Assembly (NCBI GenBank): GCA_039105265.1
Contig: JAPFFF010000005.1
Span: 5,317,501 to 5,381,500 of the forward strand
Source of the DNA: Tritrichomonas musculus
Lineage: Eukaryota > Parabasalia > Tritrichomonadida > Tritrichomonadidae
DNA: 64,000 nt
Reading direction: 5' to 3'
Positions within the stretch are counted from its first letter, which is position 1; every line of letters begins with the position of its first letter. Shown here one piece after another: positions 10,224 to 40,320 of this stretch. Under the pieces are notes generated by a model. It was not told where the DNA came from. It was given only the letters and a program-made list of their open reading frames with translations, and searched no databases. A program made the translations under genes and the position numbers.

Positions 10224-13200
10224 ATGTTTAAGATTATACTTCTTGTTGCCCTTTCATTAGCTGCCGAGCCATTGTGTCCTGACACTCCAAAGGCAGTCAA
10301 AGTAACTGGTGAAACAGTTGGCGACGGTGCTTATTCGGACTGCATCAACATTACATCTTTGACGATCGGTAGTACAGTTAAAAAAATAGGGAAATCAGCA
10401 TTCAAAGGTTGCACTGAAATAGAAGGAGAAGTAGTTATTCCATCCTCTGTCACAAGAATTGAAGATAATGCTTTTGAAAACTGTTGCAAAATAACAGCGT
10501 TGGATTTCAGTTCCGCCACTAAATTGGAATTCGTAGGTGTTTCAGCATTTGAAAACTGCATAAAAGTAGGAAGTTTGGCGATTCCTAGCACTCTTGTTAA
10601 CATTTCAAAAAGAGCATTTTATAACTGTACTGGTATAACACATTTAACACTTCATGATGATATGGAATCCATTGATGATGAAGCCTTCTACAACTGTGAG
10701 CAATTGCAGTTATCTGCAGCTATTCCAACTTCGGTAAAAACAATTGGTAATTATGCTTTTTATAATTGCAAGGGATTTTATACGTCAAGGTCACTTAGTT
10801 TTGGTCCCGATTTGCAAAAAATTGGTGATTATGCCTTTTACAATTGGGAAAATGTCGGTGGTTTTTCCTTTTCAGACGGCCTAATCGAAATAGGTGACTA
10901 TTCATTTGCCAATGTTAAATGTGAATCTTGTTCAAGTAGTTATTTATCAATTCCAAGTTCTCTCAAACGAATAGGTGATTATGCTTTTTATCAATATGAT
11001 AAATTTTCTTCAATTGATTTTGGCTCAAATCTTGAAACTATTGGAAAGGCAGCTTTTGCAAATGCAAGTTCAACAAGTTCTTATTTGTCATTAAATTTCC
11101 CTTATTCTCTTAAAACAATTGGTGATTACGCATTTCAGCGGTTCAAAACTATCTATTCACTTGCATTAAGAGAGAATTTAGAAACAATTGGTAACTATGC
11201 ATTTGCAGATTGCACTTTTTCTAGCTCAAGTATAAGTTTAAATTTCCCAAGTTCTGTGCAAAAAATCGGAGATTTTGCTTTTTATAAATTTAAAAACATA
11301 TATTCAATAAGATTTAACCCATATGGTATGCTAAAAGAAATTGGGCAGTATGCATTTGCAGAATGTTCTCCGTATTATAGTTATAATAGTCTTCAAATCA
11401 ACTTTCCAGAAAATTTAGAAGTTATAAATGACTATGCCTTTTATAAATTCCAGAGATTATCAACTTTAAGTTTTGGTCCAAAATTAAACAGAATTGGTAA
11501 TTACGCTTTTGCTGAACCATTAAATAGCCAAAGCGGATATCTTTCCATAACTTTTCCAAATTCAACAAAAACAATTGGCGATTATGCCTTTTATGAATAT
11601 AAAGATATCTCTAGAATAACATTAGGCATAAATTTAGAAACGATTGGCAGATATGCCTTTGCCGAATGCACTTACTTAAATGGATATGACACATATCATT
11701 ATCCAAATAATCGATATTACTATCAAGATAGAAATGGCCTTGTAATCCCAAATTCAGTACGCCAAATTGGTGATCATGCTTTTTACCAATGCACATACAT
11801 ACGTTACTTATATTTAAGCTGTAATCTTCAAGTAATTGAAAATAACACCTTTTATGGTTGCAGTTCAATTCAACAGCATGTTGCAATTCCAGATTCATGC
11901 ACCACCATTGAAGAATCTGCATTTGAAGGTTGTGAAAATATTGAATTTTTATCGTTTGGCAAAAGCCTTGTTGAAATTGGAGATAATGCCTTCAAAGGAT
12001 GCACAAATCTGTATGGTCCTTTATTGATTCCTGATTCAGTAGAAAAAATTGGTAAAAATGCGTTTTTACAATGCCAAAGTATTAATTATTTGCATGTTGG
12101 GAACAGAGTCACTGAAATTCAAGATGGTGCTTTTCAAGATTGCAAGGGAGTAAACTTTATGACTGGTATTCCAGTAAATCTCACTGTTTTAGGTGATAAT
12201 GCATTCAATGGCTGTAGTTCAATGGTTGCTGATATTGTTATTCCAGATGGTGTGATAAATATTAGTCAAGGTGCTTTTCAAGATTGCAATTCGATTACTT
12301 CATTAAAAATTGGGAAAAATGTTCAAGATATTGGTGATTTTGCTTTTTCTGAATGTAAGAATATTAAATCGATTTCAGGTGCATTTGAAAGCCTTAAAAC
12401 TATTGGTCTTAACGCCTTTTTTAATTGTGAAAGAATGGCAGGAAATATCGTGTTTCCAAATGCAGTCGAAATAATTCCTAATTATGCATTTTTTGGATGC
12501 CGTTCATTAAATTCTATTAAGTTTGGAGACTCATTACAAGAGATTGGAGATTATGCCTTTTATTATTGTATTAATTTGACAGGAAAATTAGATTTGCCTT
12601 CTACTCTTTATTCTCTTGGAAATTATTCTTTTTTCGGATGTTATAATTTAACAGGAGTACTATCTATCCCGCCTTATGTACAAGAAATTAAAGAATATAC
12701 TTTTTATTACTGCAAAGGAATTACTGAGCTTCAAATGACAAACAATATCACTACAATTTATCAAAGTGCTTTCTGTAACTGTGAAGAACTTACTTCAATA
12801 ACTTTTTCAGACAATTTATCAGTTATTAGTGATTATGCATTTGCATATTGTTACAAATTGCAGTCAATTGAACTTCCCTATAATTTGACAACAATTAGTA
12901 GATACGGATTTTACGATTGCAGTTCGGTTTCATCTATTGTATTTAATGATAATGTTACCGATATTCAATATAATGCATTCGCATATTGCACAACCCTTAC
13001 TGAGTTAAAACTCCCAGACCAATTAGAAGAAATAAATGAGAGAGTTTTTGCATCATGTACGAATCTTCTTACTATTAGTTTTCCTGCCAATTTAACTAAA
13101 ATAAATTCATATGCTTTTGCTGAATGTGAAAACTTAACAACACTTCAATTTACTGATAAATTAGATACTATAGGTGAATATGCATTCTCTAGTTGTATCT

Positions 13201-16200
13201 CCCTTACAAAAATCACTTTCAATATTAACTTGACAACCATTGAAAGTTATGCATTTGAGCATTGCACTAAATTGGATAATCTTGAATTAACCGACAATAT
13301 CTCAACTGTTGGATCGTATTCGTTTTGGCATTGCGAATTGCTTTCTACATTGACATTCCCTTCAAAACTTAAGAGTATTGGAGAGTATGCATTTGCTTTT
13401 TGTATCGATTTACAGACATTAGATTTGCCAGCTGAATTGACGTCGGTAAGTGTAGGATGTTTCTTTAACTGTAGTAAGCTCGATACCATCGCATTTAATA
13501 ACAAAGTTAGAAGTATAGGTTATCGTTCTTTTTATAATTGCTTTACAATAAAGAACTTAGTTTTCAATAACGATATTAGTACCATAGGTGAATCAGCATT
13601 TCAATTTTGTTCAGGTATTGAAACAATAACTTGGCCAACGAGCTTACAATCACTTGGTGAACTGAGTTTTGCAAATTGCACAACGATTAAATCATTAGTA
13701 TTTCCAAATAATCTTCGAACAATTGGATCTAGTGCATTTGCTGCATGCACAAATGTCGAAAGTGTCGTACTAGGAACATCAGTTTCAACAATAGATAGTT
13801 TTGCCTTCGCTTATTGTCATAAACTGCTAACAATTAGACTTACTGATTCTCTTACTAGTGTTGGAGATTATGCATTTCGTGAATGCATTGGACTTACCAA
13901 ATATACAATTGCATCAGAGTTGGATGATTCTATTTTTGGAACTGGTGTATTTTATAATTGCTCAAACTTAACAGAAAAAGTTACTTTCCCATCTAAATTT
14001 ACATCAATTCCAGATGAATTTCTCTCGCACTCTGTAGGATTAACCGAATTTGAAATTCATAATAAAATAGAAAATATTGGATTTGGTGCATTTGATAGTT
14101 GCATAAGATTGACAAAAGAAAACTTAACATTTTCTAATAAACTTTTATACATAGGCGATTCAGCATTTCGTAACTGTACCAATTTGAAAGGTCATTTAAT
14201 CCTTCCAGATTCACTTTGGTATATTGGAGCTCATGCATTTGAATTTTGCACAGGATTTAAGAACACTTTAGAAATACCAGGCTCAATTAAAAATATTTTT
14301 AATAATACATTTGCTCAATGCAGAGGCTTTTCATCATTAATATTGCATGAAGGATTGCTTCAAATTTACAGTTCAGCATTTTATAATTGCACAGGACTTG
14401 TTTCAAGTTTAGAATTCCCTTCATCTTTACATTATTTAGAACCATATGCCTTCTACAACTGCACAGGAATTACTGGATCTCTTAATTTATCAAATATTGA
14501 ACGAATCATTGGAAGGTATGCATTCTATAACTGTATAAAATTAAAGGGAACTTTAACACTTGGAGAAGGTGTTACTACTGTTGGAGAATATGCTTTTTAC
14601 AAATGTTCTGGCTTAAGTGGTCAAATTTACTTATCAAGATATATTTCTCAAATTGAGCAATACGCATTCTATGGATGCTCAAATCTTGAAGGTCCATTGA
14701 ACTTTTCATCAAATCTTGAAGAAATTGGAAATTTCGCCTTTTATAGATGTACTTCGCTTAACGGATTTTTGCATCTTGGATCTGACATAAGTAACATTGG
14801 ATCTTATGCCTTTTGTGGATGCTCAAAAATAAAAGGTGTCCTAAGAATTGGTTTGCACTCAAGATGCTACATTAATGATTATGCTTTCTCTGAATGCACA
14901 GGATTTTCAGGTTTGATTCTTTATAATGTCTCTCATGTTGGCAAATTTGCTTTTAATCGATGTGTTGGATTCAAAGATTCACTGATATTTGAATCTTATT
15001 ATTATTATAATAATAATTATGAAATGGATATAGATGATTACGCATTTTATAAATGCACAGGTTTTAATGGAAACTTAACATTGCCTAATTATCTCTCTTC
15101 GATTGGAAACTATGCATTTTATGGTTGCACAGGATTTAAAGGTAATTTAGTAATACCACCAAAGACTGAATACATTGGAGATTATGCATTTGCAAATTGC
15201 AATAACTTTTCGCCAAACTTAACATTAGCATATTATGATAAATATTATGATTTAATAACAGAAGTAAAGCACATTGGCGATTATGCATTTTACAATTGCC
15301 GAGGACTTACTGGAAACTTGATTTTGTCAAATGATTTGGTCTATATTGGAAAAAGCGCCTTTGCTGATTGCTCATTCAATGGTGATTTAACAATGTTTGA
15401 TGGATATAATTTGCACATTAATCAGTATGCATTTAACAATACAAAATTTGCGACATTAATTTATTGGGGTTATGTAGAACCTTCATATTCACATCCAATT
15501 GGTTTAGATGCAAATATAAAGATTTATGCACCAAGGATTCTCGAAACATGTGAAAAGCATACCTTTGCTTATAGGAGTCCAAGCTTTTGTTCCTATAATG
15601 TATTCAATAGTAATATTCAACAATCAAATGATGATGATGATAAAGTTGAAATTAATATTAAATTTAATGAAGTTCAAGAATATGTAGCAAGATTTAGTGA
15701 AGAAGTTGAAGCACAAAAGAATAAAGATTTTGAAAACAAAACCAATGAAATCAAACTTGATATAACTGATATACCAATTGAAGAGGAAATTCCACTCCTG
15801 ACTGATAAATATGGAGAAAACGATATTATAAAATTCAAAGGAAAAGACAATTTCAAGCTTAAATACGATGGTGGAAATGTAAAATTAGCTTTGGACCAAT
15901 ATGGGTACTCAAACGCTAAATGTACACTAAAATTAAATCAAGCTGATCCAAAAATATCATTTGCTAAAAATAGTGTTTCTAGTATTTATAATTTAGACAC
16001 GAGCTCAAATAGTGTAAACTTTGATTCATTATCAGAAATTGGAAATGGTGATCTTACTATTAATGTTCCAAAAGGCGTTAATTCAGTAACAATGAAAGAG
16101 CTTGTTCTATCTTCCAATGGCAAATTAAACATTAACAAATGTCAAAAGAGTGATTGGAATGATTGTACTGCAATACCTGTTGATGTTAACAATATAACTG

Positions 16201-16811
16201 CTCAAAATAATGATGGTTATCCATTCAAAATGAGTAACATTAATGTTAATGGTCAATTTAATGTTAAGCAAACAGCAACTGTTGAATTTGGCGATAATGT
16301 TTCTTTAACCGAATCTGACATTATTTATAAAATTGATGAATTGAATTTTGCTGGTTCTTATCCAGTATTTTCTGGCGAAACTAAGACAGTTCCAAGAGAT
16401 TTCTATATAAAATTGCCCGAAGATCTCTCCAATATCAATCTTAGTCAAATTGGTGATATTGTTCTATTTAAGGGTAACTTTAGTTGCACTGAATGGCGTG
16501 ATAAAGTTCATTTTGATTATGGCAAAAAATACTTCAATTATACAGATTGTGTGCCTGAAAGTGAAACCGGTAACTTTGCAAGTTTACTTGAAGATAACCA
16601 AGTATTAAAACTCTTCGCTAACAAAGAATATGAAAATGATTTCGGTAAAACTGTTTGCAGCAAGAGTAAAAAATTAAGTGGAGGTGCAATTGCAGGAATT
16701 GTAATTGCATGCATCGTTGCAGTAGCTGCAATTGTTGTAGGTGAATACTTCTTAATTATGCACTTTAAGAATAAGGAGGATGCCAGTGAAAAAGAAGCTG
16801 AAGAGCCATAG
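10224..16811 (+). CDS. giant BspA-like leucine-rich-repeat surface protein (2195 aa)
   Basis: Residues 1-16 (MFKIILLVALSLAAEP) are a cleavable-type signal peptide. From about residue 30 to 1790 the protein is an unbroken array of roughly 23-residue BspA/TpLRR (LRR_5) repeats with the recurring pattern L..IG.YAF..C..L......P..L. Residues 1790-2150 are non-repetitive, with paired Cys (CTLKLNQ, KCQKSDWNDC, SCTEWRD, DCVPES), likely a membrane-proximal domain. A single helix at about 2153-2181 (AIAGIVIACIVAVAAIVVG) is followed by a short charged tail (KNKEDASEKEAEEP). This is a type I membrane protein with a large ectodomain. BspA-like proteins are hugely expanded in trichomonads and are linked to adhesion to host cells or bacteria. 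At 2195 residues this is a long member. The start is set by the signal peptide and the promoter motif. No frame breaks. Confidence 0.93.
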   Translation: MFKIILLVALSLAAEPLCPDTPKAVKVTGETVGDGAYSDCINITSLTIGSTVKKIGKSAFKGCTEIEGEVVIPSSVTRIEDNAFENCCKITALDFSSATKLEFVGVSAFENCIKVGSLAIPSTLVNISKRAFYNCTGITHLTLHDDMESIDDEAFYNCEQLQLSAAIPTSVKTIGNYAFYNCKGFYTSRSLSFGPDLQKIGDYAFYNWENVGGFSFSDGLIEIGDYSFANVKCESCSSSYLSIPSSLKRIGDYAFYQYDKFSSIDFGSNLETIGKAAFANASSTSSYLSLNFPYSLKTIGDYAFQRFKTIYSLALRENLETIGNYAFADCTFSSSSISLNFPSSVQKIGDFAFYKFKNIYSIRFNPYGMLKEIGQYAFAECSPYYSYNSLQINFPENLEVINDYAFYKFQRLSTLSFGPKLNRIGNYAFAEPLNSQSGYLSITFPNSTKTIGDYAFYEYKDISRITLGINLETIGRYAFAECTYLNGYDTYHYPNNRYYYQDRNGLVIPNSVRQIGDHAFYQCTYIRYLYLSCNLQVIENNTFYGCSSIQQHVAIPDSCTTIEESAFEGCENIEFLSFGKSLVEIGDNAFKGCTNLYGPLLIPDSVEKIGKNAFLQCQSINYLHVGNRVTEIQDGAFQDCKGVNFMTGIPVNLTVLGDNAFNGCSSMVADIVIPDGVINISQGAFQDCNSITSLKIGKNVQDIGDFAFSECKNIKSISGAFESLKTIGLNAFFNCERMAGNIVFPNAVEIIPNYAFFGCRSLNSIKFGDSLQEIGDYAFYYCINLTGKLDLPSTLYSLGNYSFFGCYNLTGVLSIPPYVQEIKEYTFYYCKGITELQMTNNITTIYQSAFCNCEELTSITFSDNLSVISDYAFAYCYKLQSIELPYNLTTISRYGFYDCSSVSSIVFNDNVTDIQYNAFAYCTTLTELKLPDQLEEINERVFASCTNLLTISFPANLTKINSYAFAECENLTTLQFTDKLDTIGEYAFSSCISLTKITFNINLTTIESYAFEHCTKLDNLELTDNISTVGSYSFWHCELLSTLTFPSKLKSIGEYAFAFCIDLQTLDLPAELTSVSVGCFFNCSKLDTIAFNNKVRSIGYRSFYNCFTIKNLVFNNDISTIGESAFQFCSGIETITWPTSLQSLGELSFANCTTIKSLVFPNNLRTIGSSAFAACTNVESVVLGTSVSTIDSFAFAYCHKLLTIRLTDSLTSVGDYAFRECIGLTKYTIASELDDSIFGTGVFYNCSNLTEKVTFPSKFTSIPDEFLSHSVGLTEFEIHNKIENIGFGAFDSCIRLTKENLTFSNKLLYIGDSAFRNCTNLKGHLILPDSLWYIGAHAFEFCTGFKNTLEIPGSIKNIFNNTFAQCRGFSSLILHEGLLQIYSSAFYNCTGLVSSLEFPSSLHYLEPYAFYNCTGITGSLNLSNIERIIGRYAFYNCIKLKGTLTLGEGVTTVGEYAFYKCSGLSGQIYLSRYISQIEQYAFYGCSNLEGPLNFSSNLEEIGNFAFYRCTSLNGFLHLGSDISNIGSYAFCGCSKIKGVLRIGLHSRCYINDYAFSECTGFSGLILYNVSHVGKFAFNRCVGFKDSLIFESYYYYNNNYEMDIDDYAFYKCTGFNGNLTLPNYLSSIGNYAFYGCTGFKGNLVIPPKTEYIGDYAFANCNNFSPNLTLAYYDKYYDLITEVKHIGDYAFYNCRGLTGNLILSNDLVYIGKSAFADCSFNGDLTMFDGYNLHINQYAFNNTKFATLIYWGYVEPSYSHPIGLDANIKIYAPRILETCEKHTFAYRSPSFCSYNVFNSNIQQSNDDDDKVEINIKFNEVQEYVARFSEEVEAQKNKDFENKTNEIKLDITDIPIEEEIPLLTDKYGENDIIKFKGKDNFKLKYDGGNVKLALDQYGYSNAKCTLKLNQADPKISFAKNSVSSIYNLDTSSNSVNFDSLSEIGNGDLTINVPKGVNSVTMKELVLSSNGKLNINKCQKSDWNDCTAIPVDVNNITAQNNDGYPFKMSNINVNGQFNVKQTATVEFGDNVSLTESDIIYKIDELNFAGSYPVFSGETKTVPRDFYIKLPEDLSNINLSQIGDIVLFKGNFSCTEWRDKVHFDYGKKYFNYTDCVPESETGNFASLLEDNQVLKLFANKEYENDFGKTVCSKSKKLSGGAIAGIVIACIVAVAAIVVGEYFLIMHFKNKEDASEKEAEEP

Positions 16812-28540: not shown

Positions 28541-29578
28541 AGATTACTGAATTTAACTTTTTATGTAAAATCATTCCAACGTTTTATTATTTTCAATAAC
28601 GCTTTTTCAAAGGTCTGGTCTGAAGTGATTAAATTGGATTTATTAAATAATATTGGTTTATATTTGAAGAAGAAAAAAGTCGATTAAAAATAAACTTTAT
28701 TTTTGAAATTTATAAGACGTTTGGAATTAAATTATTCAAATTTTCAGAAGGTTTCTTTTGAAAATGTTATGAAAGTTTTTTTAAAAAAACTCATATTTAA
28801 CAAACAATTTTCCATTTTTTGAGAGTATCTTATGTTAAATTGTAATATATTGGATCTTATAGTAACTTTTAATGTTTAATTTGTGTGTGTTTATGAGCAT
28901 ATAATCGAAAAAAGAGTTATTATAACAATTGTTTTATTTAAATATCTTTTGAAAAATGGTGAAAAAAAAATATTGGCATATCTCATAAAATAAATTCAAT
29001 TTTTAAAATTACTATAATAAAAATGGTGAAAATATATTTATATATTTAATATTTAAAATTAAAATAAAAATAAATTAAAAATTAATGAAATAAAATGCTT
29101 TTCATTTTTCTTTATTCTTTAGAATTGGCATTTTGTAAAGTATTTAAAAAAAAAAAAATTGTACGTTAATCTATCTTAAACTAATTCATAAAATCCATTT
29201 ATTTTTTTGAGAGTAGTATGGTTTACAACTGATTCATGAATTAATTATATTTTTCCATCTTTTAATGAATTTCCTTTGCAATTCTGCCTAATATGGTATA
29301 AATTTGAAGTAAACTAAATAAAAAGTTTTAAGGGTATAGTTTAAATTATTTTTTGAAGTAATTCAGAAGATTTTATATTTTTATATTTTATTCAATATTG
29401 AATTAAAAAAATATTCATTCACAATTTACAATTTTTTATGAGATATGCCTAAACATGAATATCATGAGTTGCTTTAAACATTTAGCAATTTTAAAATAGC
29501 CAAAGAGATGATAAATATTAATATAAATCAAAATTTTAAAATCTTAAAATAGTATAGTATATTATTTTAAATAATATA
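28541..29578. other. AT-rich intergenic DNA, nothing recognised
   Basis: About 1 kb between the upstream end of the large TPR gene and the Mutator-like element. No coding frame, hairpin ends or RNA gene were found. Confidence 0.5.
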
Positions 29579-29960
29579 ATGGCTAATAAATTTTTCAACA
29601 CAAACTCGCGCCCACTTTTTGAAAGCAAGGTTGCAAATAACAATAGAAAAAAAATTGAATAAAGATGATTATTTTTTGAATAGATTATACAAAAAGTGAT
29701 ATCTTTTTCAGGGAATATACAAATGTTGATCGTATAGGTAAAAAAAATGTTAAAAATAATTTTCAACAAAAACCCCGCTATTTTATGATATGTTTAATTT
29801 ATTATATTAATATCTAATCAACGTTCTTGAAAGGACATCAGTTGCCTTAGCAAAACAGGCGTTTGTTTCTAATATGAAACAAATTATGGTTTGAAATTAG
29901 TATAATAATTAAACATATTGTAAATAATATGAAATTCTTTGTATATATCAGGGCCATTTT
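29579..29960 (+). repeat. left outer terminal inverted repeat of the Mutator-like element
   Basis: Near-perfect inverse of 38358-38740. Includes CAACACAAACTCGCGCCCAC near the tip and GATATATCAGGGCCATTTTA-type sequence at the junction with the array. The open frames at 29536(-) and 38549(+) are the same repeated DNA, not genes. Confidence 0.9.
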
Positions 29961-31860
29961 ATATCAGTTATAAACGAGGATTCTAGCAACAATTAAGCAT
30001 CTTATACGTTGTTTAAATATCTCACTCATGCACTTCTCTCAGGCTAATTATCTTTTTAATATCAGTTATAAGACAATCAAATAAGGCGTTGTATCAGTTA
30101 TAAACGAGGATTCTAACAACAATTAAGTATCTTATACGTTGTTTAAATATCTCACTCATGCACTTCTCTCAGGCTAATTATCTTTTTAATATCAGTTATA
30201 CGACAATCAAATAAGGCGTTGTATCAGTTATAAACGAGGATTCTAACAACAATTAAGCATCTTATACGTTGTTTAAATATCTCACTCATGCACTTCTCTC
30301 AGGCTAATTATCTTTTTAATATCAGTTATACGACAATCAAATAAGGCGTTGTATCAGTTATAAACGAGGATTCTAACAACAATTAAGTATCTTATACGTT
30401 GTTTAAATATCTCACTCATGCACTTCTCTCAGGCTAATTATCTTTTTAATATCAGTTATACGACAATCAAATAAGGCGTTGTATCAGTTATAAACGAGGA
30501 TTCTAACAACAATTAAGCATCTTATACGTTGTTTAAATATCTCACTCATGCACTTCTCTCAGGCTAATTATCTTTTTAATATCAGTTATACGACAATCAA
30601 ATAAGGCGTTGTATCAGTTATAAACGAGGATTCTAACAACAATTAAGCATCTTATACGTTGTTTAAATATCTCACTCATGCACTTCTCTCAGGCTAATTA
30701 TCTTTTTAATATCAGTTATACGACAATCAAATAAGGCGTTGTATCAGTTATAAACGAGGATTCTAACAACAATTAAGTATCTTATACGTTGTTTAAATAT
30801 CTCACTCATGCACTTCTCTCAGGCTAATTATCTTTTTAATATCAGTTATACGACAATCAAATAAGGCGTTGTATCAGTTATAAACGAGGATTCTAACAAC
30901 AATTAAGCATCTTATACGTTGTTTAAATATCTCACTCATGCACTTCTCTCAGGCTAATTATCTTTTTAATATCAGTTATAAGACAATCAAATAAGGCGTT
31001 GTATCAGTTATAAACGAGGATTCTAACAACAATTAAGCATCTTATACGTTGTTTAAATATCTCACTCATGCACTTCTCTCAGGCTAATTATCTTTTTAAT
31101 ATCAGTTATACGACAATCAAATAAGGCGTTGTATCAGTTATAAACGAGGATTCTAACAACAATTAAGTATCTTATACGTTGTTTAAATATCTCACTCATG
31201 CACTTCTCTCAGGCTAATTATCTTTTTAATATCAGTTATACGACAATCAAATAAGGCGTTGTATCAGTTATAAACGAGGATTCTAACAACAATTAAGTAT
31301 CTTATACGTTGTTTAAATATCTCACTCATGCACTTCTCTCAGGCTAATTATCTTTTTAATATCAGTTATACGACAATCAAATAAGGCGTTGTATCAGTTA
31401 TAAACGAGGATTCTAACAACAATTAAGTATCTTATACGTTGTTTAAATATCTCACTCATGCACTTCTCTCAGGCTAATTATCTTTTTAATATCAGTTATA
31501 CGACAATCAAATAAGGCGTTGTATCAGTTATAAACGAGGATTCTAACAACAATTAAGTATCTTATACGTTGTTTAAATATCTCACTCATGCACTTCTCTC
31601 AGGCTAATTATCTTTTTAATATCAGTTATACGACAATCAAATAAGGCGTTGTATCAGTTATAAACGAGGATTCTAACAACAATTAAGTATCTTATACGTT
31701 GTTTAAATATCTCACTCATGCACTTCTCTCAGGCTAATTATCTTTTTAATATCAGTTATACGACAATCAAATAAGGCGTTGTATCAGTTATAAACGAGGA
31801 TTCTAACAACAATTAAGTATCTTATACGTTGTTTAAATATCTCACTCATGCACTTCTCTC
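29961..31860 (+). repeat. 130-bp tandem array, left arm (about 14.6 copies)
   Basis: Head-to-tail units begin at 29961, 30091, 30221 and every 130 bases to 31781, the last being cut after CATGCACTTCTCTCA. Units are almost identical; only a few positions vary (AAGTATC or AAGCATC; TTATACGAC or TTATAAGAC; CTAACAAC or CTAGCAAC). Each unit contains the 11-mer TATCAGTTATA twice. Confidence 0.97.
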
Positions 31861-32132
31861 ATACTAATTTTCTTCTAATAACAGTTCAATATCTCAAATT
31901 TACTTCATTTAGATAAAAAATCTAATAATTCTTACTTTTATTTTTTAGTTAAACATTCTTTTATTAATTTGACATATACTCTAAAATTTGATCATTATTC
32001 AAATTCAATTTTATATATTTCTTTCTGGTAGATAATTATCATTTATTTAAAGATTTCTCTTTACCATTGTTTTTTTAAATAAATGATTTTTCTTATTTAC
32101 ATTAATTTGACCAAAATTTTTTGTCAAATTTG

Positions 32133-34343
32133 ATGTTTCAAAAGCTTCCAAATCAAGAAGATTCAAATGAATATTTCCTAAAACCATTGAATCCACAGCT
32201 ATTAAAGGAAAATAAAAATCGAGAAAAATCCAAAAATGTTATTGAGCTGGTGCCTTTTGATAATGATGAATTTAATTTTATTTCATTTATCGATTTTGCC
32301 TACGCAGTTCATGAAACTTTTATAGTTATCGATATTAAACATACAAAAAAAGAAACGACAACAATAGAACTAATGAGAAAAAAGAGACAGTCTTTTGTTC
32401 AATCAATTTTTTATGATTTTCGAATTGAAATTGCAGATAAATTTAAAAGTATTCATGTTTTTATTAAGAATAATATGACAAATTTTGATTACAAAATCAA
32501 AGATGGTATTGAATGTATCAGGTTGAAATGGAGTAAAAGATTTAATCCATTTTTTAAAGCTATTGAAATTGGTCAATTACAAAAAAGTTCTTTAATCTAT
32601 GAAACAGCTATTTTCTTTTCTAAAAACGCAGAACTCTGTCCTCACTGCATTTTGATATTTTTTATGAAAATCGCTAACACAAAAACAGATTTATTTGAAA
32701 AATGCATTAACAATCAAAATAGTATTGAAGATATATTGTTTTATTGTCCTGGATTTATTCAAATTAATTGCTCTAAAAATGATATCAATGATATCAGAAC
32801 GATATCAATAATTTTTCCATGGACATTTCCATTAATAAATTTATTTCATTATATTGAATTGGACGGTTCTTTTCGTGCTGTAAAACCTTATACTTTCTGC
32901 GTGGCACAAGGAATCATTTTCAATGAATCTTTTCCATTCGCCATTACCATCACTCCATCTGAATCTACTGAATTGTATTCCATGATTTTTGACAGAATTA
33001 ATGAAATCACTCAAAGCAAAATTAACTGGAGCGGAAAGTTGATATTATCCGACATGGGAACAGCTCTAAAATCAGTTTGCGATCATTACAATTTCATGCA
33101 ATTCTTCTGTCATCGCCATATAATTGAACACTTTGGTTCAAATTCTGTTCTTGGAAATTTGTGCAGGAAAATCTTAAAAGCTTTTGATCCAATTGAATAC
33201 GGCCAAATATGTATTGAAATTAAAGAAATACTCGAATGCTACAAAAAAGAAAGGCAAACACAAAATGCAACTAATCAAGATACAGAAAACAAAATTAAAG
33301 ATTTAGAAATAATGATTAGTGGTGATAATGGAGATGTCAAGAGTAATTATTTTTATTTGAAATGGGCGCTATGGGTTCGCGGAAGTTATCACGTTGGAAG
33401 ATGCACAAATCATAATGAGAGCTTTCATTCTGTAATAAACGGCACATTGAATTACACTAAATCATTCAAAAAAAAACTTTCAAATTTAATTCAACAAACA
33501 CTTAAGCACTGCTCAAATTTGAAGAAAAGGAAAGGTACATCAATAAAAAGAAAAGTGAAAGCAATAATTCAATTTGTTATAAATAAAACCAAGAATGTTT
33601 CTTTTAACATAATGTGCTTATGCGATGAAAATTGTCATTGTAATGAAGGAGAATATAATAAACAAATATATGGAGCTGAAATACCTTGTACACATCAAAT
33701 TTTATTACCTGCCAAAGCAGAAATTGAAATGATTATCAAAAAACTTACCAATAATAAAGATGGAATAACAATAAATTGTTTAGTTTATTCAATACTTAAT
33801 TACTGCAAATTTTTCAAACGTATTTATGAAGTAAATTACCAAAAACTTGCTGATGACATAATCAAAAATACGAATTTCAATTTTTCAATTCAGTTTAATC
33901 AAAATGATTTTATTCAAATTATAGCTGCAATCTTAAAATGCTTTCGATTTGATTTCCCTGAGGTTCCTGTTATTGATCAAATCTATGATCATGCTCATGA
34001 AATAAAGTACACCTATTTTGATCCCTCAGAAAGACACCCCGAAGAACAATCGAATAATCATGAGCAATATTTTATAAAGGATGATGAATCTGATTATTTT
34101 CAGCATTTCCAAGTTGGTTATGAAAATAAAGGGAAAGAAATACTTTTTGAAACGATCAATGAGGTTTTGAATGTATACCCAGAAATTATACCTCAAAACT
34201 CAGCATATGAATTGTGTATTGATGAGTTTTTGAAATATATGGTTGAAAAAAATGATGATATTGCAAAATCGATAGCAAAATTCAAGATTGCATGTTGGAA
34301 GAAAGCAGATAAATTGATGCATTTGAATAGATTTTTTACATAA
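32133..34343 (+). CDS. Mutator-like (MULE) transposase
   Basis: A 736-residue DDE transposase, intact. First ATG is 32133 (MFQKLPNQEDSNEYFLKPLN); a TTG four codons earlier is not used. The catalytic core is visible: IELDGSFRAVKPYTF (first Asp, about residue 246), LILSDMGTALKSVCDHYNFM (second Asp, about 307), CHRHIIEHF (the MULE C-x-x-H element) and GRCTNHNESFHSVINGT (Glu of the triad, about 428). An N-terminal region before the core and a Cys-rich segment (CLCDENCHCNEGEYNKQIYGAEIPCTH in parts) may bind zinc or DNA. It lies alone between the two satellite arms, which would be its substrate. The lack of frame damage suggests recent activity. Confidence 0.88.
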   Translation: MFQKLPNQEDSNEYFLKPLNPQLLKENKNREKSKNVIELVPFDNDEFNFISFIDFAYAVHETFIVIDIKHTKKETTTIELMRKKRQSFVQSIFYDFRIEIADKFKSIHVFIKNNMTNFDYKIKDGIECIRLKWSKRFNPFFKAIEIGQLQKSSLIYETAIFFSKNAELCPHCILIFFMKIANTKTDLFEKCINNQNSIEDILFYCPGFIQINCSKNDINDIRTISIIFPWTFPLINLFHYIELDGSFRAVKPYTFCVAQGIIFNESFPFAITITPSESTELYSMIFDRINEITQSKINWSGKLILSDMGTALKSVCDHYNFMQFFCHRHIIEHFGSNSVLGNLCRKILKAFDPIEYGQICIEIKEILECYKKERQTQNATNQDTENKIKDLEIMISGDNGDVKSNYFYLKWALWVRGSYHVGRCTNHNESFHSVINGTLNYTKSFKKKLSNLIQQTLKHCSNLKKRKGTSIKRKVKAIIQFVINKTKNVSFNIMCLCDENCHCNEGEYNKQIYGAEIPCTHQILLPAKAEIEMIIKKLTNNKDGITINCLVYSILNYCKFFKRIYEVNYQKLADDIIKNTNFNFSIQFNQNDFIQIIAAILKCFRFDFPEVPVIDQIYDHAHEIKYTYFDPSERHPEEQSNNHEQYFIKDDESDYFQHFQVGYENKGKEILFETINEVLNVYPEIIPQNSAYELCIDEFLKYMVEKNDDIAKSIAKFKIACWKKADKLMHLNRFFT

Positions 34344-34452
34344 GAGTTAAAAAATATTAATAAAAAAATAAAATAATAAATATTAATATATCATTTAATT
34401 AAAAATAAGTGGAATATTACAAATATTTTAATGATCTAATGTTATAATAATT

Positions 34453-37400
34453 GATATAACGCCTTATTTGATTGTCTTATAACTGATATTAAAAAGATAA
34501 TTAGCCTGAGAGAAGTGCATGAGTGAGATATTTAAACAACGTATAAGATGCTTAATTGTTGTTAGAATCCTCGTTTATAACTGATACAACGCCTTATTTG
34601 ATTGTCGTATAACTGATATTAAAAAGATAATTAGCCTGAGAGAAGTGCATGAGTGAGATATTTAAACAACGTATAAGATACTTAATTGTTGTTAGAATCC
34701 TCGTTTATAACTGATACAACGCCTTATTTGATTGTCTTATAACTGATATTAAAAAGATAATTAGCCTGAGAGAAGTGCATGAGTGAGATATTTAAACAAC
34801 GTATAAGATACTTAATTGTTGTTAGAATCCTCGTTTATAACTGATACAACGCCTTATTTGATTGTCGTATAACTGATATTAAAAAGATAATTAGCCTGAG
34901 AGAAGTGCATGAGTGAGATATTTAAACAACGTATAAGATGCTTAATTGTTGCTAGAATCCTCGTTTATAACTGATACAACGCCTTATTTGATTGTCTTAT
35001 AACTGATATTAAAAAGATAATTAGCCTGAGAGAAGTGCATGAGTGAGATATTTAAACAACGTATAAGATGCTTAATTGTTGTTAGAATCCTCGTTTATAA
35101 CTGATACAACGCCTTATTTGATTGTCGTATAACTGATATTAAAAAGATAATTAGCCTGAGAGAAGTGCATGAGTGAGATATTTAAACAACGTATAAGATA
35201 CTTAATTGTTGTTAGAATCCTCGTTTATAACTGATACAACGCCTTATTTGATTGTCGTATAACTGATATTAAAAAGATAATTAGCCTGAGAGAAGTGCAT
35301 GAGTGAGATATTTAAACAACGTATAAGATACTTAATTGTTGTTAGAATCCTCGTTTATAACTGATACAACGCCTTATTTGATTGTCGTATAACTGATATT
35401 AAAAAGATAATTAGCCTGAGAGAAGTGCATGAGTGAGATATTTAAACAACGTATAAGATGCTTAATTGTTGTTAGAATCCTCGTTTATAACTGATACAAC
35501 GCCTTATTTGATTGTCTTATAACTGATATTAAAAAGATAATTAGCCTGAGAGAAGTGCATGAGTGAGATATTTAAACAACGTATAAGATGCTTAATTGTT
35601 GTTAGAATCCTCGTTTATAACTGATACAACGCCTTATTTGATTGTCTTATAACTGATATTAAAAAGATAATTAGCCTGAGAGAAGTGCATGAGTGAGATA
35701 TTTAAACAACGTATAAGATGCTTAATTGTTGTTAGAATCCTCGTTTATAACTGATACAACGCCTTATTTGATTGTCGTATAACTGATATTAAAAAGATAA
35801 TTAGCCTGAGAGAAGTGCATGAGTGAGATATTTAAACAACGTATAAGATGCTTAATTGTTGTTAGAATCCTCGTTTATAACTGATACAACGCCTTATTTG
35901 ATTGTCGTATAACTGATATTAAAAAGATAATTAGCCTGAGAGAAGTGCATGAGTGAGATATTTAAACAACGTATAAGATACTTAATTGTTGTTAGAATCC
36001 TCGTTTATAACTGATACAACGCCTTATTTGATTGTCGTATAACTGATATTAAAAAGATAATTAGCCTGAGAGAAGTGCATGAGTGAGATATTTAAACAAC
36101 GTATAAGATACTTAATTGTTGCTAGAATCCTCGTTTATAACTGATACAACGCCTTATTTGATTGTCTTATAACTGATATTAAAAAGATAATTAGCCTGAG
36201 AGAAGTGCATGAGTGAGATATTTAAACAACGTATAAGATGCTTAATTGTTGTTAGAATCCTCGTTTATAACTGATACAACGCCTTATTTGATTGTCGTAT
36301 AACTGATATTAAAAAGATAATTAGCCTGAGAGAAGTGCATGAGTGAGATATTTAAACAACGTATAAGATGCTTAATTGTTGTTAGAATCCTCGTTTATAA
36401 CTGATACAACGCCTTATTTGATTGTCGTATAACTGATATTAAAAAGATAATTAGCCTGAGAGAAGTGCATGAGTGAGATATTTAAACAACGTATAAGATG
36501 CTTAATTGTTGTTAGAATCCTCGTTTATAACTGATACAACGCCTTATTTGATTGTCGTATAACTGATATTAAAAAGATAATTAGCCTGAGAGAAGTGCAT
36601 GAGTGAGATATTTAAACAACGTATAAGATGCTTAATTGTTGTTAGAATCCTCGTTTATAACTGATACAACGCCTTATTTGATTGTCGTATAACTGATATT
36701 AAAAAGATAATTAGCCTGAGAGAAGTGCATGAGTGAGATATTTAAACAACGTATAAGATACTTAATTGTTGTTAGAATCCTCGTTTATAACTGATACAAC
36801 GCCTTATTTGATTGTCTTATAACTGATATTAAAAAGATAATTAGCCTGAGAGAAGTGCATGAGTGAGATATTTAAACAACGTATAAGATGCTTAATTGTT
36901 GTTAGAATCCTCGTTTATAACTGATACAACGCCTTATTTGATTGTCGTATAACTGATATTAAAAAGATAATTAGCCTGAGAGAAGTGCATGAGTGAGATA
37001 TTTAAACAACGTATAAGATGCTTAATTGTTGTTAGAATCCTCGTTTATAACTGATACAACGCCTTATTTGATTGTCGTATAACTGATATTAAAAAGATAA
37101 TTAGCCTGAGAGAAGTGCATGAGTGAGATATTTAAACAACGTATAAGATGCTTAATTGTTGTTAGAATCCTCGTTTATAACTGATACAACGCCTTATTTG
37201 ATTGTCGTATAACTGATATTAAAAAGATAATTAGCCTGAGAGAAGTGCATGAGTGAGATATTTAAACAACGTATAAGATACTTAATTGTTGTTAGAATCC
37301 TCGTTTATAACTGATACAACGCCTTATTTGATTGTCGTATAACTGATATTAAAAAGATAATTAGCCTGAAAGAAGTGCATGAGTGAGATATTTAAACAAC

Positions 37401-38357
37401 GTATAAGATACTTAATTGTTGTTAGAATCCTCGTTTATAACTGATACAACGCCTTATTTGATTGTCGTATAACTGATATTAAAAAGATAATTAGCCTGAG
37501 AGAAGTGCATGAGTGAGATATTTAAACAACGTATAAGATACTTAATTGTTGTTAGAATCCTCGTTTATAACTGATACAACGCCTTATTTGATTGTCGTAT
37601 AACTGATATTAAAAAGATAATTAGCCTGAGAGAAGTGCATGAGTGAGATATTTAAACAACGTATAAGATACTTAATTGTTGCTAGAATCCTCGTTTATAA
37701 CTGATACAACGCCTTATTTGATTGTCTTATAACTGATATTAAAAAGATAATTAGCCTGAGAGAAGTGCATGAGTGAGATATTTAAACAACGTATAAGATG
37801 CTTAATTGTTGTTAGAATCCTCGTTTATAACTGATACAACGCCTTATTTGATTGTCTTATAACTGATATTAAAAAGATAATTAGCCTGAGAGAAGTGCAT
37901 GAGTGAGATATTTAAACAACGTATAAGATACTTAATTGTTGTTAGAATCCTCGTTTATAACTGATACAACGCCTTATTTGATTGTCGTATAACTGATATT
38001 AAAAAGATAATTAGCCTGAGAGAAGTGCATGAGTGAGATATTTAAACAACGTATAAGATGCTTAATTGTTGTTAGAATCCTCGTTTATAACTGATACAAC
38101 GCCTTATTTGATTGTCTTATAACTGATATTAAAAAGATAATTAGCCTGAGAGAAGTGCATGAGTGAGATATTTAAACAACGTATAAGATACTTAATTGTT
38201 GTTAGAATCCTCGTTTATAACTGATACAACGCCTTATTTGATTGTCGTATAACTGATATTAAAAAGATAATTAGCCTGAGAGAAGTGCATGAGTGAGATA
38301 TTTAAACAACGTATAAGATGCTTAATTGTTGCTAGAATCCTCGTTTATAACTGATAT
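34453..38357 (-). repeat. 130-bp tandem array, right arm (about 30 copies)
   Basis: The same 130-bp unit as the left arm but inverted, about 30 head-to-tail copies to GTTTATAACTGATAT at 38357. Three positions vary in combination (GTCTTAT or GTCGTAT; AAGATGC or AAGATAC; TTGTTAG or TTGCTAG), and one unit near 37370 reads CCTGAAAG. Confidence 0.97.
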
Positions 38358-38740
38358 AAAATGGCCCTGATATATACAAAGAATTTCATATTATTTACAA
38401 TATGTTTAATTATTATACTAATTTCAAACCATAATTTGTTTCATATTAGAAACAAACGCCTGTTTTGCTAAGGCAACTGATGTCCTTTCAAGAACGTTGA
38501 TTAGATATTAATATAATAAATTAAACATATCATAAAATAGCGGGGTTTTTGTTGAAAATTATTTTTAACATTTTTTTTACCTATACGATCAACATTTGTA
38601 TATTCCCTGAAAAAGATATCACTTTTTGTATAATCTATTCAAAAAATAATCATCTTTATTCAATTTTTTTTCTATTGTTATTTGCAACCTTGCTTTCAAA
38701 AAGTGGGCGCGAGTTTGTGTTGAAAAAAATTTTAGCCATT
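38358..38740 (-). repeat. right outer terminal inverted repeat of the Mutator-like element
   Basis: Inverse of 29579-29960 with a few indels in homopolymers near the tip (GAAAAAAATTTTAGCCATT against AATGGCTAATAAATTTTTC). Confidence 0.9.
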
Positions 38741-38858
38741 CACTAACCAAATAAATTTAAATTCGATGTATAATCAAGATTAAACTTCCATTATAAGAAT
38801 AGATCTTCATGGATTTTAATTCTAAATCATATAAAGCTGACATTTACTTAGTATCTAA

Positions 38859-40320
38859 CTAAAATAGAAATAATTAGTCAAGATATTTATCTTAAAATAT
38901 AAAAAATGAGAAAATTTCTGAGAATATCAAGATCTATATCAGAAAATAAATGATATAGTCGATTGCTATTTGAAAACAAGAGCAAATGAAATAAAATGAA
39001 ATTTGAAAAAAATAAAAAAGTTGTTTTCAATGAGTGTTTTTTATTTATTCAGGTACTTTTTGTATGAATATTTTGCTTTTTGTTTGATATTGGTAGTTTT
39101 TCAAAGATTTTAACGTAATTTTAAGACGTTAATTTTTATGAAAATTTGGTGTTCAAAACGTTTAATACACAATTTTAAAGAACTTGGTGAGCTTTATTCG
39201 GGATAAACGAATACATATTACGCAATTTTGAGTAAAGAAAAGAATAACGATTAGAAATATGAAATTGACCTACAAAAAATGGTCAAATAAAAAGATCTGA
39301 CAAAATATTTTTCCTCTATTTATTTTTTAATTTTTAATATAAAGTTAAGATGTACGTAAAAAATTGTCTGACCAGTTTTTTTTATTTGTTCCAAAAAAAT
39401 TTCTATACCTAATTATGATTCAAAACTCAATAACAACAAAAGGAAAAAATAAATCCTCCGGCCAAATCTAATATTTATATATATATATTTGAAATCAATC
39501 ATAAAATCTTCTAAAATGCTTAGATTCACCTCATTTTCAAGCTTTTTTAAAAAAATATGAAAATTCAATGCATTTTATATTTTTGATTATTGAATTTGAA
39601 AAGAATTGAATAGAATATAAAATGAAAAATACTATTTTCTCCGTAGCCATGAATATAAATTTTTGTCATTTGATTTTTGGTATATGAAAATTAAATCAAA
39701 AAATATTAGATTTAGCCGGAGGATTTATTTTTTCCTTTTGTTGTTATTGAGTTTTGAATCATAATTAGGTATAGAAATTTTTTTGGAACAAATAAAAAAA
39801 ACTGGTCAGACAATTTTTTACGTACATCTTAACTTTATATTAAAAATTAAAAAATAAATAGAGGAAAAATATTTTGTCAGATCTTTTTATTTGACCATTT
39901 TTTGTAGGTCAATTTCATATTTCTAATCGTTATTCTTTTCTTTACTCAAAATTGCGTAATATGTATTCGTTTATCCCGAATAAAGCTCACCAAGTTCTTT
40001 AAAATTGTGTATTAAACGTTTTGAACACCAAATTTTCATAAAAATTAACGTCTTAAAATTACGTTAAAATCTTTGAAAAACTACCAATATCAAACAAAAA
40101 GCAAAATATTCATACAAAAAGTACCTGAATAAATAAAAAACACTCATTGAAAACAACTTTTTTATTTTTTTCAAATTTCATTTTATTTCATTTGCTCTTG
40201 TTTTCAAATAGCAATCGACTATATCATTTATTTTCTGATATAGATCTTGATATTCTCAGAAATTTTCTCATTTTTTGATATTTTAAGAAAAATATCTCAA
40301 CTAATATTTATATTTTAGCA
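38859..40320. mobile_element. 1.46-kb palindromic (foldback) element
   Basis: Two arms of about 600 bases, roughly 38859-39475 and 39698-40320, are inverse copies with near-perfect pairing; only the central 220 bases are unpaired. The arms meet the centre at ATCCTCCGGCCAAATCTAAT and its inverse TTAGCCGGAGGAT. There is no ORF. The outermost 40 bases of each arm are more diverged. It begins about 120 bases from the right end of the Mutator-like element. Read as a non-autonomous foldback transposon; no target duplication could be assigned. Confidence 0.82.

Follow-up and report, generated by a model that had tools for sequence, protein, structure and literature searches.

We analysed a 64,000-nucleotide stretch of the Tritrichomonas musculus genome (contig JAPFFF010000005.1, positions 5,317,501 to 5,381,500; hereafter the window), which contains a transposon that we call E5. 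The original prediction described a Mutator-like element (MULE) at this locus, in which arrays of a 130-bp unit face each other across an intact transposase, with outer inverted repeats as caps. We confirm that layout, count 14 full units and a 105-bp partial one on the left and 30 on the right, refine the outer repeats to 381 bp and reset the ends to 29581 and 38737. The features of the locus are as follows.

29581..38737, no strand assigned: whole element E5, 9,157 bp, with ends GGCTAA...TTAGCC (the copies E7 and E1, described below, end in the same motif)
29581..29961, + strand: left outer inverted repeat, 381 bp, containing the tip core TCGCGCCCACTTTTTG
29962..31781, + strand: left array, 14 full 130-bp units
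31782..31886, + strand: diverged partial unit, 105 bp, at the inner end of the left array
32133..34343, + strand: transposase, an intact open frame of 736 aa, MULE-type
34457..38356, - strand: right array, facing the left array, 30 full 130-bp units
38357..38737, - strand: right outer inverted repeat, 381 bp
29328..29582, no strand assigned: left flank, part of a high-copy repeat, sharing the GG at 29581-29582 with the E5 tip
38738..39340, no strand assigned: right flank, the same high-copy repeat continued

Read from the outside inward, an arm of E5 consists of the 381-bp outer domain, the array of 130-bp units and a short inner end specific to that arm. Tandem Repeats Finder reported period-130 arrays at 29962-31886 (14.8 copies, 99% matches) and 34447-38356 (30.1 copies, 98% matches), and an inverted-repeat scan paired 29578-31874 with 36444-38740 at 99% complementarity (arms of 2,297 nt). 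The left and right outer arms differ at 3 of 381 positions, all near the tip. Foldback elements are recognised by long inverted arms that contain a variable number of tandem repeats. Judged from its sequence, E5 is very probably a potentially autonomous foldback-type MULE with three-layered inverted repeats that include a variable-copy 130-bp array. The rest of the window outside E5 has an array in one of 18 tiles of 3 kb, a 30-bp one, under one threshold set; the tiles are shorter than the loci discussed below (3.6-13 kb) and, at 55 kb in total, give a limited background.

The arrays are part of the element, and their copy number varies between otherwise near-identical copies. The genome searched comprised 193.40 Mb in 746 contigs; the published T. 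musculus assembly has 193.49 Mb in 756 contigs (PMC11978803; this and all other papers are cited from the excerpts available). Three complete copies with the outer domain were found, at three sites, E5 and two others:

E7, C7:2507373-2513930 (L009): 14 left and 10 right units
E1, C1:3457508-3461061 (L010): a partial unit only on the left and one unit on the right, with no tandem array

Perfect 9-bp target duplications flank E7 (ATAATCTAT) and E1 (AATATAAAC), so that two of the three copies have duplications of the size expected of MULEs (8-11 bp), and E5 has none. These duplications support the assignment to Mutator-like elements. The transposase is intact in E5 and E7, with 2 of 736 residues different, and broken in E1 (two frames, one stop). 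The internal DNA of E5 differs from that of E7 at 4 of 2,570 positions and from that of E1 at 72 of 2,552, plus 18 gap columns. Because the internal DNA of E5 and E7 is nearly identical, the 20-unit difference between their right arms arose with almost no point mutations. Thus, the suggestion that the array can change in size is borne out by the series of a partial unit and 1, 14 and 10, and 14 and 30 units in E1, E7 and E5.

The distribution of the unit in the genome also ties it to the element. All 72 matches to the 130-bp unit (a lower bound, since the search scores best candidates only) lie inside E5, E7 and E1, and therefore the array travels with the element. The exact 32-base unit pattern has no match in viral contigs. 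That the satellite belongs to the element, as the original prediction held, thus agrees with three copies at three sites, two of them with 9-bp duplications, and the occurrence of the satellite apart from the element, which would have spoken against it, was not found. By the same token, the further idea that E5 seeds satellite DNA elsewhere is not supported, because no free array of the unit was found among the best-scored genome matches. We considered whether a transposon had jumped into a pre-existing 130-bp satellite, in which case the arrays would be host DNA. An insertion of this sort may occur in this genome, at C100 (L043), where a MULE lies between same-facing 131-bp arrays. In E5, however, the two arrays point towards each other inside outer inverted repeats, no free array of the unit was found among the scored matches, and E7 refutes a host origin outright, with both of its arrays inside the 9-bp target duplication. 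We give this explanation almost no credence.

We postulate that the transposase acts on the conserved tips of the element and that the array could be enlarged, shrunk and homogenised by recombination or gap repair, acting from unit to unit as well as across the inverted arms. Variation among units bears on the second part. We compared 68 full units (44 from E5 and 24 from E7; partial units and the E1 unit were left out). Seven of the 130 positions are variable, three of them commonly so (sites 25, 37 and 110). Within a copy, the two arms are alike at all three (p 0.16-1.0). Between E5 and E7, the variant frequencies are different at site 25 (p 4.5e-6) and at site 37 (p 1.1e-3) and show no difference at site 110 (p 0.23); as the units of an array are not independent of one another, all these p values are a rough guide. 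Each of the three site pairs shows all four variant combinations. Since the arms are alike within a copy and the copies differ, the arms behave as if homogenised together, and the variant pattern fits recombination or conversion among units and between arms. As single-stranded DNA, a single array unit folds no better than its shuffles (two units tested).

E1 suggests how such an array could begin. Its right-hand unit begins with TATCAGTTAT and is followed by TATCAATTAT, a 10-bp near-repeat. The seed of the array was probably a single unit flanked by this near-repeat, as in E1, and slippage between the near-repeats would produce a tandem duplication with the observed period. The last part of the unit is absent from the left arm of E1 and, in E5 and E7, from the inner end of the left arm. 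The absence of the unit end from the inner left arms indicates that the full units of the left arm were probably copied from the right arm.

Several observations count against parts of this account. The order of variants along the two arms is no closer than in shuffles (E7 p 0.13, E5 p 0.50); because it is not significantly shared, we do not claim copying of long blocks between arms. The single unit of E1 could be a collapsed older array, which would leave the same picture. The Pfam MULE score of the E5 protein, 23.2 bits, is below the curated cut-off of 27.6. Lastly, E5 is without a target duplication and about 65 bp of its target are missing.

E5 was inserted in a copy of another high-copy repeat, and both flanks come from that repeat. 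The two flank sequences stand 65 bp apart at C54, and at least 24 places outside the window carry both flanks, with the query ends 70 bp apart in all 24 (40 right-flank matches were listed; 24 of them that lie outside the window begin at query base 1, and we paired each with a left-flank match). From the flank spacing in these other copies, E5 replaces about 65 bp of target and has no 9-bp duplication. A shifted target duplication was not found in 3 kb of either flank, and the left junction has a GG in common with the element tip. The insertion may have been aberrant and assisted by repair, or a deletion may have followed it. The missing duplication would also fit an assembly artefact, with misjudged array lengths or misjoined arms, and the PacBio reads averaged 8.9 kb, slightly under the 9.2-kb element (PMC11978803). 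Nevertheless, at 1.9 and 3.9 kb neither array reaches the average read length, the two flanks are pieces of a single repeat, correctly ordered and oriented, and so are not two unrelated ends, and E7 independently shows the same layout. We therefore regard an artefact as quite unlikely. As a separate observation, the high-copy repeat at 29328-29582 and 38738-40318 has an inverted copy of part of itself at 40004-40318.

The protein encoded by E5 is a divergent MULE-type transposase on motif and homology grounds. Its sole Pfam match at E<=0.01 is MULE (PF10551; E=9.8e-5, 23.2 bits), a match shared at that threshold by 7 of 19 aligned proteins, the E5 protein included. The AlphaFold model is good (mean predicted local distance difference test score 82.5), and a fold search of the PDB with the E5 transposase gave no significant match (best E 0.17); its top rows include integrases, RNase H and terminase nucleases, none of them significant. 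Given the Pfam score below the cut-off and the lack of a significant fold match, the class call rests on motifs and homology. The predicted DDE catalytic triad is D244, D307 and E429. In an alignment of 19 sequences D307 is invariant, E429 is nearly so and D244 lies within ELDxSF; among 21 homologues, the first aspartate motif is present in 17, the second in 20 and the glutamate motif in 20. The homologues that miss triad motifs (P0015, P0019, P0020 and P0021, 429 to 688 aa) are partial or distant. The E5 protein also has C501-x-C503-x15-C519-x-H521 (residues 501-521), a CxCx(n)CxH pattern that we take to be a SWIM-type finger and that recurs in 18 of the 21 homologues; Pfam SWIM is not reported for the E5 protein or the aligned homologues. 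A SWIM-type CxCx(n)CxH finger is listed for many MULE groups (PMC6446971). No Pfam match at E<=1 to the PHD finger characteristic of Rehavkus was found in the E5 transposase, and none to the FLYWCH finger of Phantom and Tm1 in the E5 protein or the aligned homologues, although not all Phantom members have the latter. One homologue is annotated as Tritrichomonas musculus M9Y10_016305. Another, P0001, is a protein from another source with 97.6% identity to the E5 transposase over 736 aa, so a close relative exists outside this assembly.

Many relatives of E5 carry arrays of their own. We drew up a table of 21 loci whose transposases fall in the E5 group (30-100% identity, window included; L015 and L033, which overlap tabulated stretches, do not enter the count a second time). 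Selection was by protein similarity, with the best 61 of 492 candidates scored, so that the locus counts give no genome-wide frequency. At 12 of the 21 loci, both sides carry arrays and the two match in inverted orientation; these arrays belong to nine unit families, with units of 130, 48, 121 with 81/41, 127-129, 120, 41/123 with 57, 121, 131 and 33 bp. Some array is present at 20 of the 21 loci (one threshold set). The other nine loci have the following layouts.

E1: single units only
C23: a 132-bp unit, present in 2.7 copies in one arm and incomplete in the other
C50 and C507: a 126-bp array, on one side only within the fetched stretch
C21: a 131-bp array, on one side only within the fetched stretch
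C19: a 33-bp array, on one side only within the fetched stretch
One C17 locus: units of 135 and 33 bp on opposite sides
C4: a 64-bp unit that faces itself, with a 348-bp array on the opposite side
One C5 locus: 911-bp inverted repeats, with an unrelated 60-bp array outside them only

A 22nd locus, L016 (C3:684500-692700), holds a related transposase fragment (L016:2891-3352, 163 residues, 37%), and no array was found there.

The ends of these elements are conserved and the units are not. The tips of the families share GGCTRA and the core TCGCGYCCACTTTTTG. The E5 tip core is common to related families, with one C/T change in C23, and is kept across families whose transposases are 37-63% identical while their units are unrelated. 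Target duplications, as read by eye from the sequence, were seen in relatives as well: CAAAAATAA on both sides in C40 and the 8-bp AATTTTAT in C6. We compared 18 units in pairs, 14 from the group and 4 from other MULEs. C40 and C21 turned out to share one unit (z 81), and the next best pairs reach z 4.6 or lower, which we treated as unrelated. The outer domain of C23 can be aligned with the E1 outer domain from end to end, and a different 132-bp unit follows it; the place of the array is thus conserved and its sequence is not.

The relation between unit and terminus was also examined. The terminal GGCTRA occurs inside the unit in two of four families tested (E5, as GGCTAAT, and C23). The C23 unit (L011:2252-2602, C23:1795751-1796101) resembles its own tip over 38 columns (p 0.004 against shuffles). 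We rejected the notion that the unit is a copy of the element tip, because the alignment beats shuffles only in C23 (E5 p 0.29, C40 p 0.68, C6 p 0.67). ARAGORN and Rfam found no tRNA or known RNA in the units (11 loci each). The 121-bp unit of one relative, L037 (C7:2920300-2925900), holds CCTGG-TTCGAAT-CCAGG, which resembles the T-arm of a tRNA or a B box of polymerase III; neither ARAGORN nor Rfam gives a match there.

These comparisons bear on the age of the array. The long array might be old and kept for a function, for example as extra transposase binding sites, with E1 as a collapsed product. Recombination within an array would leave exactly one unit, many related families also carry arrays in their arms, and the likeness of the C23 unit to its own terminus is what secondary binding sites would show. 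On the other hand, the units of different families are unrelated (E5 130 bp against C23 132 bp, z -1.2), so an array of this very unit is not ancestral to the clade, and no significant likeness of unit to terminus was found in E5, C40 or C6, despite the GGCTAAT in the E5 unit. We think that an old, functional array is possible, but we do not lean towards it and prefer growth from a single unit.

Outside the three copies, the outer domain has diverged matches, two ends at C23 (69-70%), one end at C79 (78%) and shorter ones. No array and no transposase match was found within 9.5 kb of the C79 end. Most of the outer-domain matches listed (29 of 40) cover just 63-64 bp of the tip, at about 80% identity. 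Two loci with such short matches, L013 and L014, are about 1.6 kb long, with GGCT tips and inverted repeats of about 520 bp and without an array; the E5 transposase is unmatched in both. Copies of this type are probably non-autonomous relatives.

Arrays in this genome seem to be linked to MULEs generally, and mirrored arrays to the E5 group. We chose eight other MULE loci by hand (L038-L045) from 142 PF10551 matches; none matches the E5 transposase at E<=1e-3. An array was found at all eight, one-sided or unmatched. L039, L040, L042 and L044 have arrays on both sides, with an inverted match in none of the four, and L038, L041 and L045 have them on one side only; the middle of each stretch stood for the gene in this side test. 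The L038 array lies outside the short inverted repeats of its element and may not belong to it. L012, L013 and L014, loci without a match to the E5 transposase, have no array. L043 (C100:56050-62050), which fell outside the side test, has a 665-aa MULE between 131-bp arrays that match in the same orientation only, as if a MULE had inserted in, or spread, a satellite. Further PF10551 matches with a 665-aa frame are present at C28, C403 and C267.

Many of the units are 120-135 bp long, both in the E5 group (130, 132, 126, 121, 127, 135, 120, 121 and 131 bp) and in other MULEs (123, 131, 126 and 126 bp). Other lengths are present, too (33, 37, 48, 51, 52, 57, 60, 63, 64, 96, 238, 271 and 348 bp), and we treat a unit length near 120-135 bp as a lead, seen in the sampled loci. 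One could speculate that MULEs here keep generating satellites. Each lineage would independently turn a piece of its arm into an array, a constraint of repair or transposition would set the unit at about 120-135 bp, exchange between arms would maintain the mirroring, and the satellite would be a functional, renewed part of the end. We offer this as a tentative idea and a rather doubtful one.

The finding of E5 is real, well supported and more general than the original prediction allowed. Its layout is less exceptional than had been thought, because an array near the transposase is common (20 of 21 tabulated group loci and 8 of 8 sampled loci of other MULEs) and because inverted arms with tandem repeats have been published for Tetris, Tm1 and Rehavkus-1_TC. 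Thus, transposons with repeats inside inverted arms are already known; the novelty lies in the host group, in the series of array sizes from copy to copy and in the turnover of units across a clade with transposases.

Each of these known systems resembles E5 in part. Tetris of Drosophila virilis has an outer domain, variable tandem repeats (220 bp) and an inner domain in each inverted arm, target duplications of 8-10 bp, near the 9 bp of E7 and E1, and a repeat partly shared with the outer domain, comparable to C23 here (PMC4079207). Unlike E5, it has no transposase found, according to the excerpt, and the alleles compared have three and four repeats, far below the counts in E5; its unit also forms longer satellite-like arrays, whereas the E5 unit forms none that we found (PMC4079207). 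Like E5, Rehavkus-1_TC of Tribolium, a DNA transposon of 9.5 kb, carries a satellite in its inverted termini; the unit is 164 bp long and the arrays are short, mostly of 5 and 8 monomers (PMC10218199). Rehavkus target duplications are 9 bp, as in E7 and E1, but the transposases have a PHD finger where E5 has a SWIM-type motif (PMC6446971), and the hosts are arthropods and annelids, whereas that of E5 is a parabasalid. The Tm1 Mutator/Foldback elements of root-knot nematodes include a member that codes for a Mutator-type transposase, as E5 does, and have 9-bp target duplications and variable arms of 1-9 tandem motif units that differ between ends (PMC3169594). In contrast to E5, the Tm1 unit is most often 14 bp, the arrays are much smaller, and the transposase has 496 aa, a FLYWCH finger and introns (PMC3169594).

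Parabasalid MULEs described before include TvMULE1-4 and the MULE-Tv group of Trichomonas vaginalis (PMC2725143, PMC6446971). Their target duplications are given as 9-11 bp (PMC6446971) or 10-14 bp (PMC2725143), and their inverted repeats are listed as 20-38 bp, or 31 and 100 bp, unlike those of E5 (PMC6446971, PMC2725143). The word 'tandem' is absent from PMC2725143 on T. vaginalis MULEs, and the main text of PMC11978803 on the T. musculus genome is without the words 'transpos' and 'MULE'. No trichomonad element with such arms was found in the open-access literature, a scope that leaves Repbase and subscription papers outside. The layout of E5 and its relatives suggests that descriptions of parabasalid MULEs, with inverted repeats of 20-100 bp in the excerpts cited, do not cover the E5 group.

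The origin of satellite DNA is an open question, and here an element is caught with one unit (or part of one), ten, fourteen and thirty. E5 illustrates a way in which mobile DNA can give rise to satellite DNA and remodel it. A series of unit numbers, with the rest of two copies hardly changed, together with a transposase and relatives with unrelated units, makes the birth, growth and turnover of arrays testable across isolates. Our results also suggest that arrays of about 120-135-bp units can mark the ends of MULEs in this genome. Elsewhere in the window, 10224-16811 encodes a very long leucine-rich repeat protein of the BspA type, as recognised by eye.

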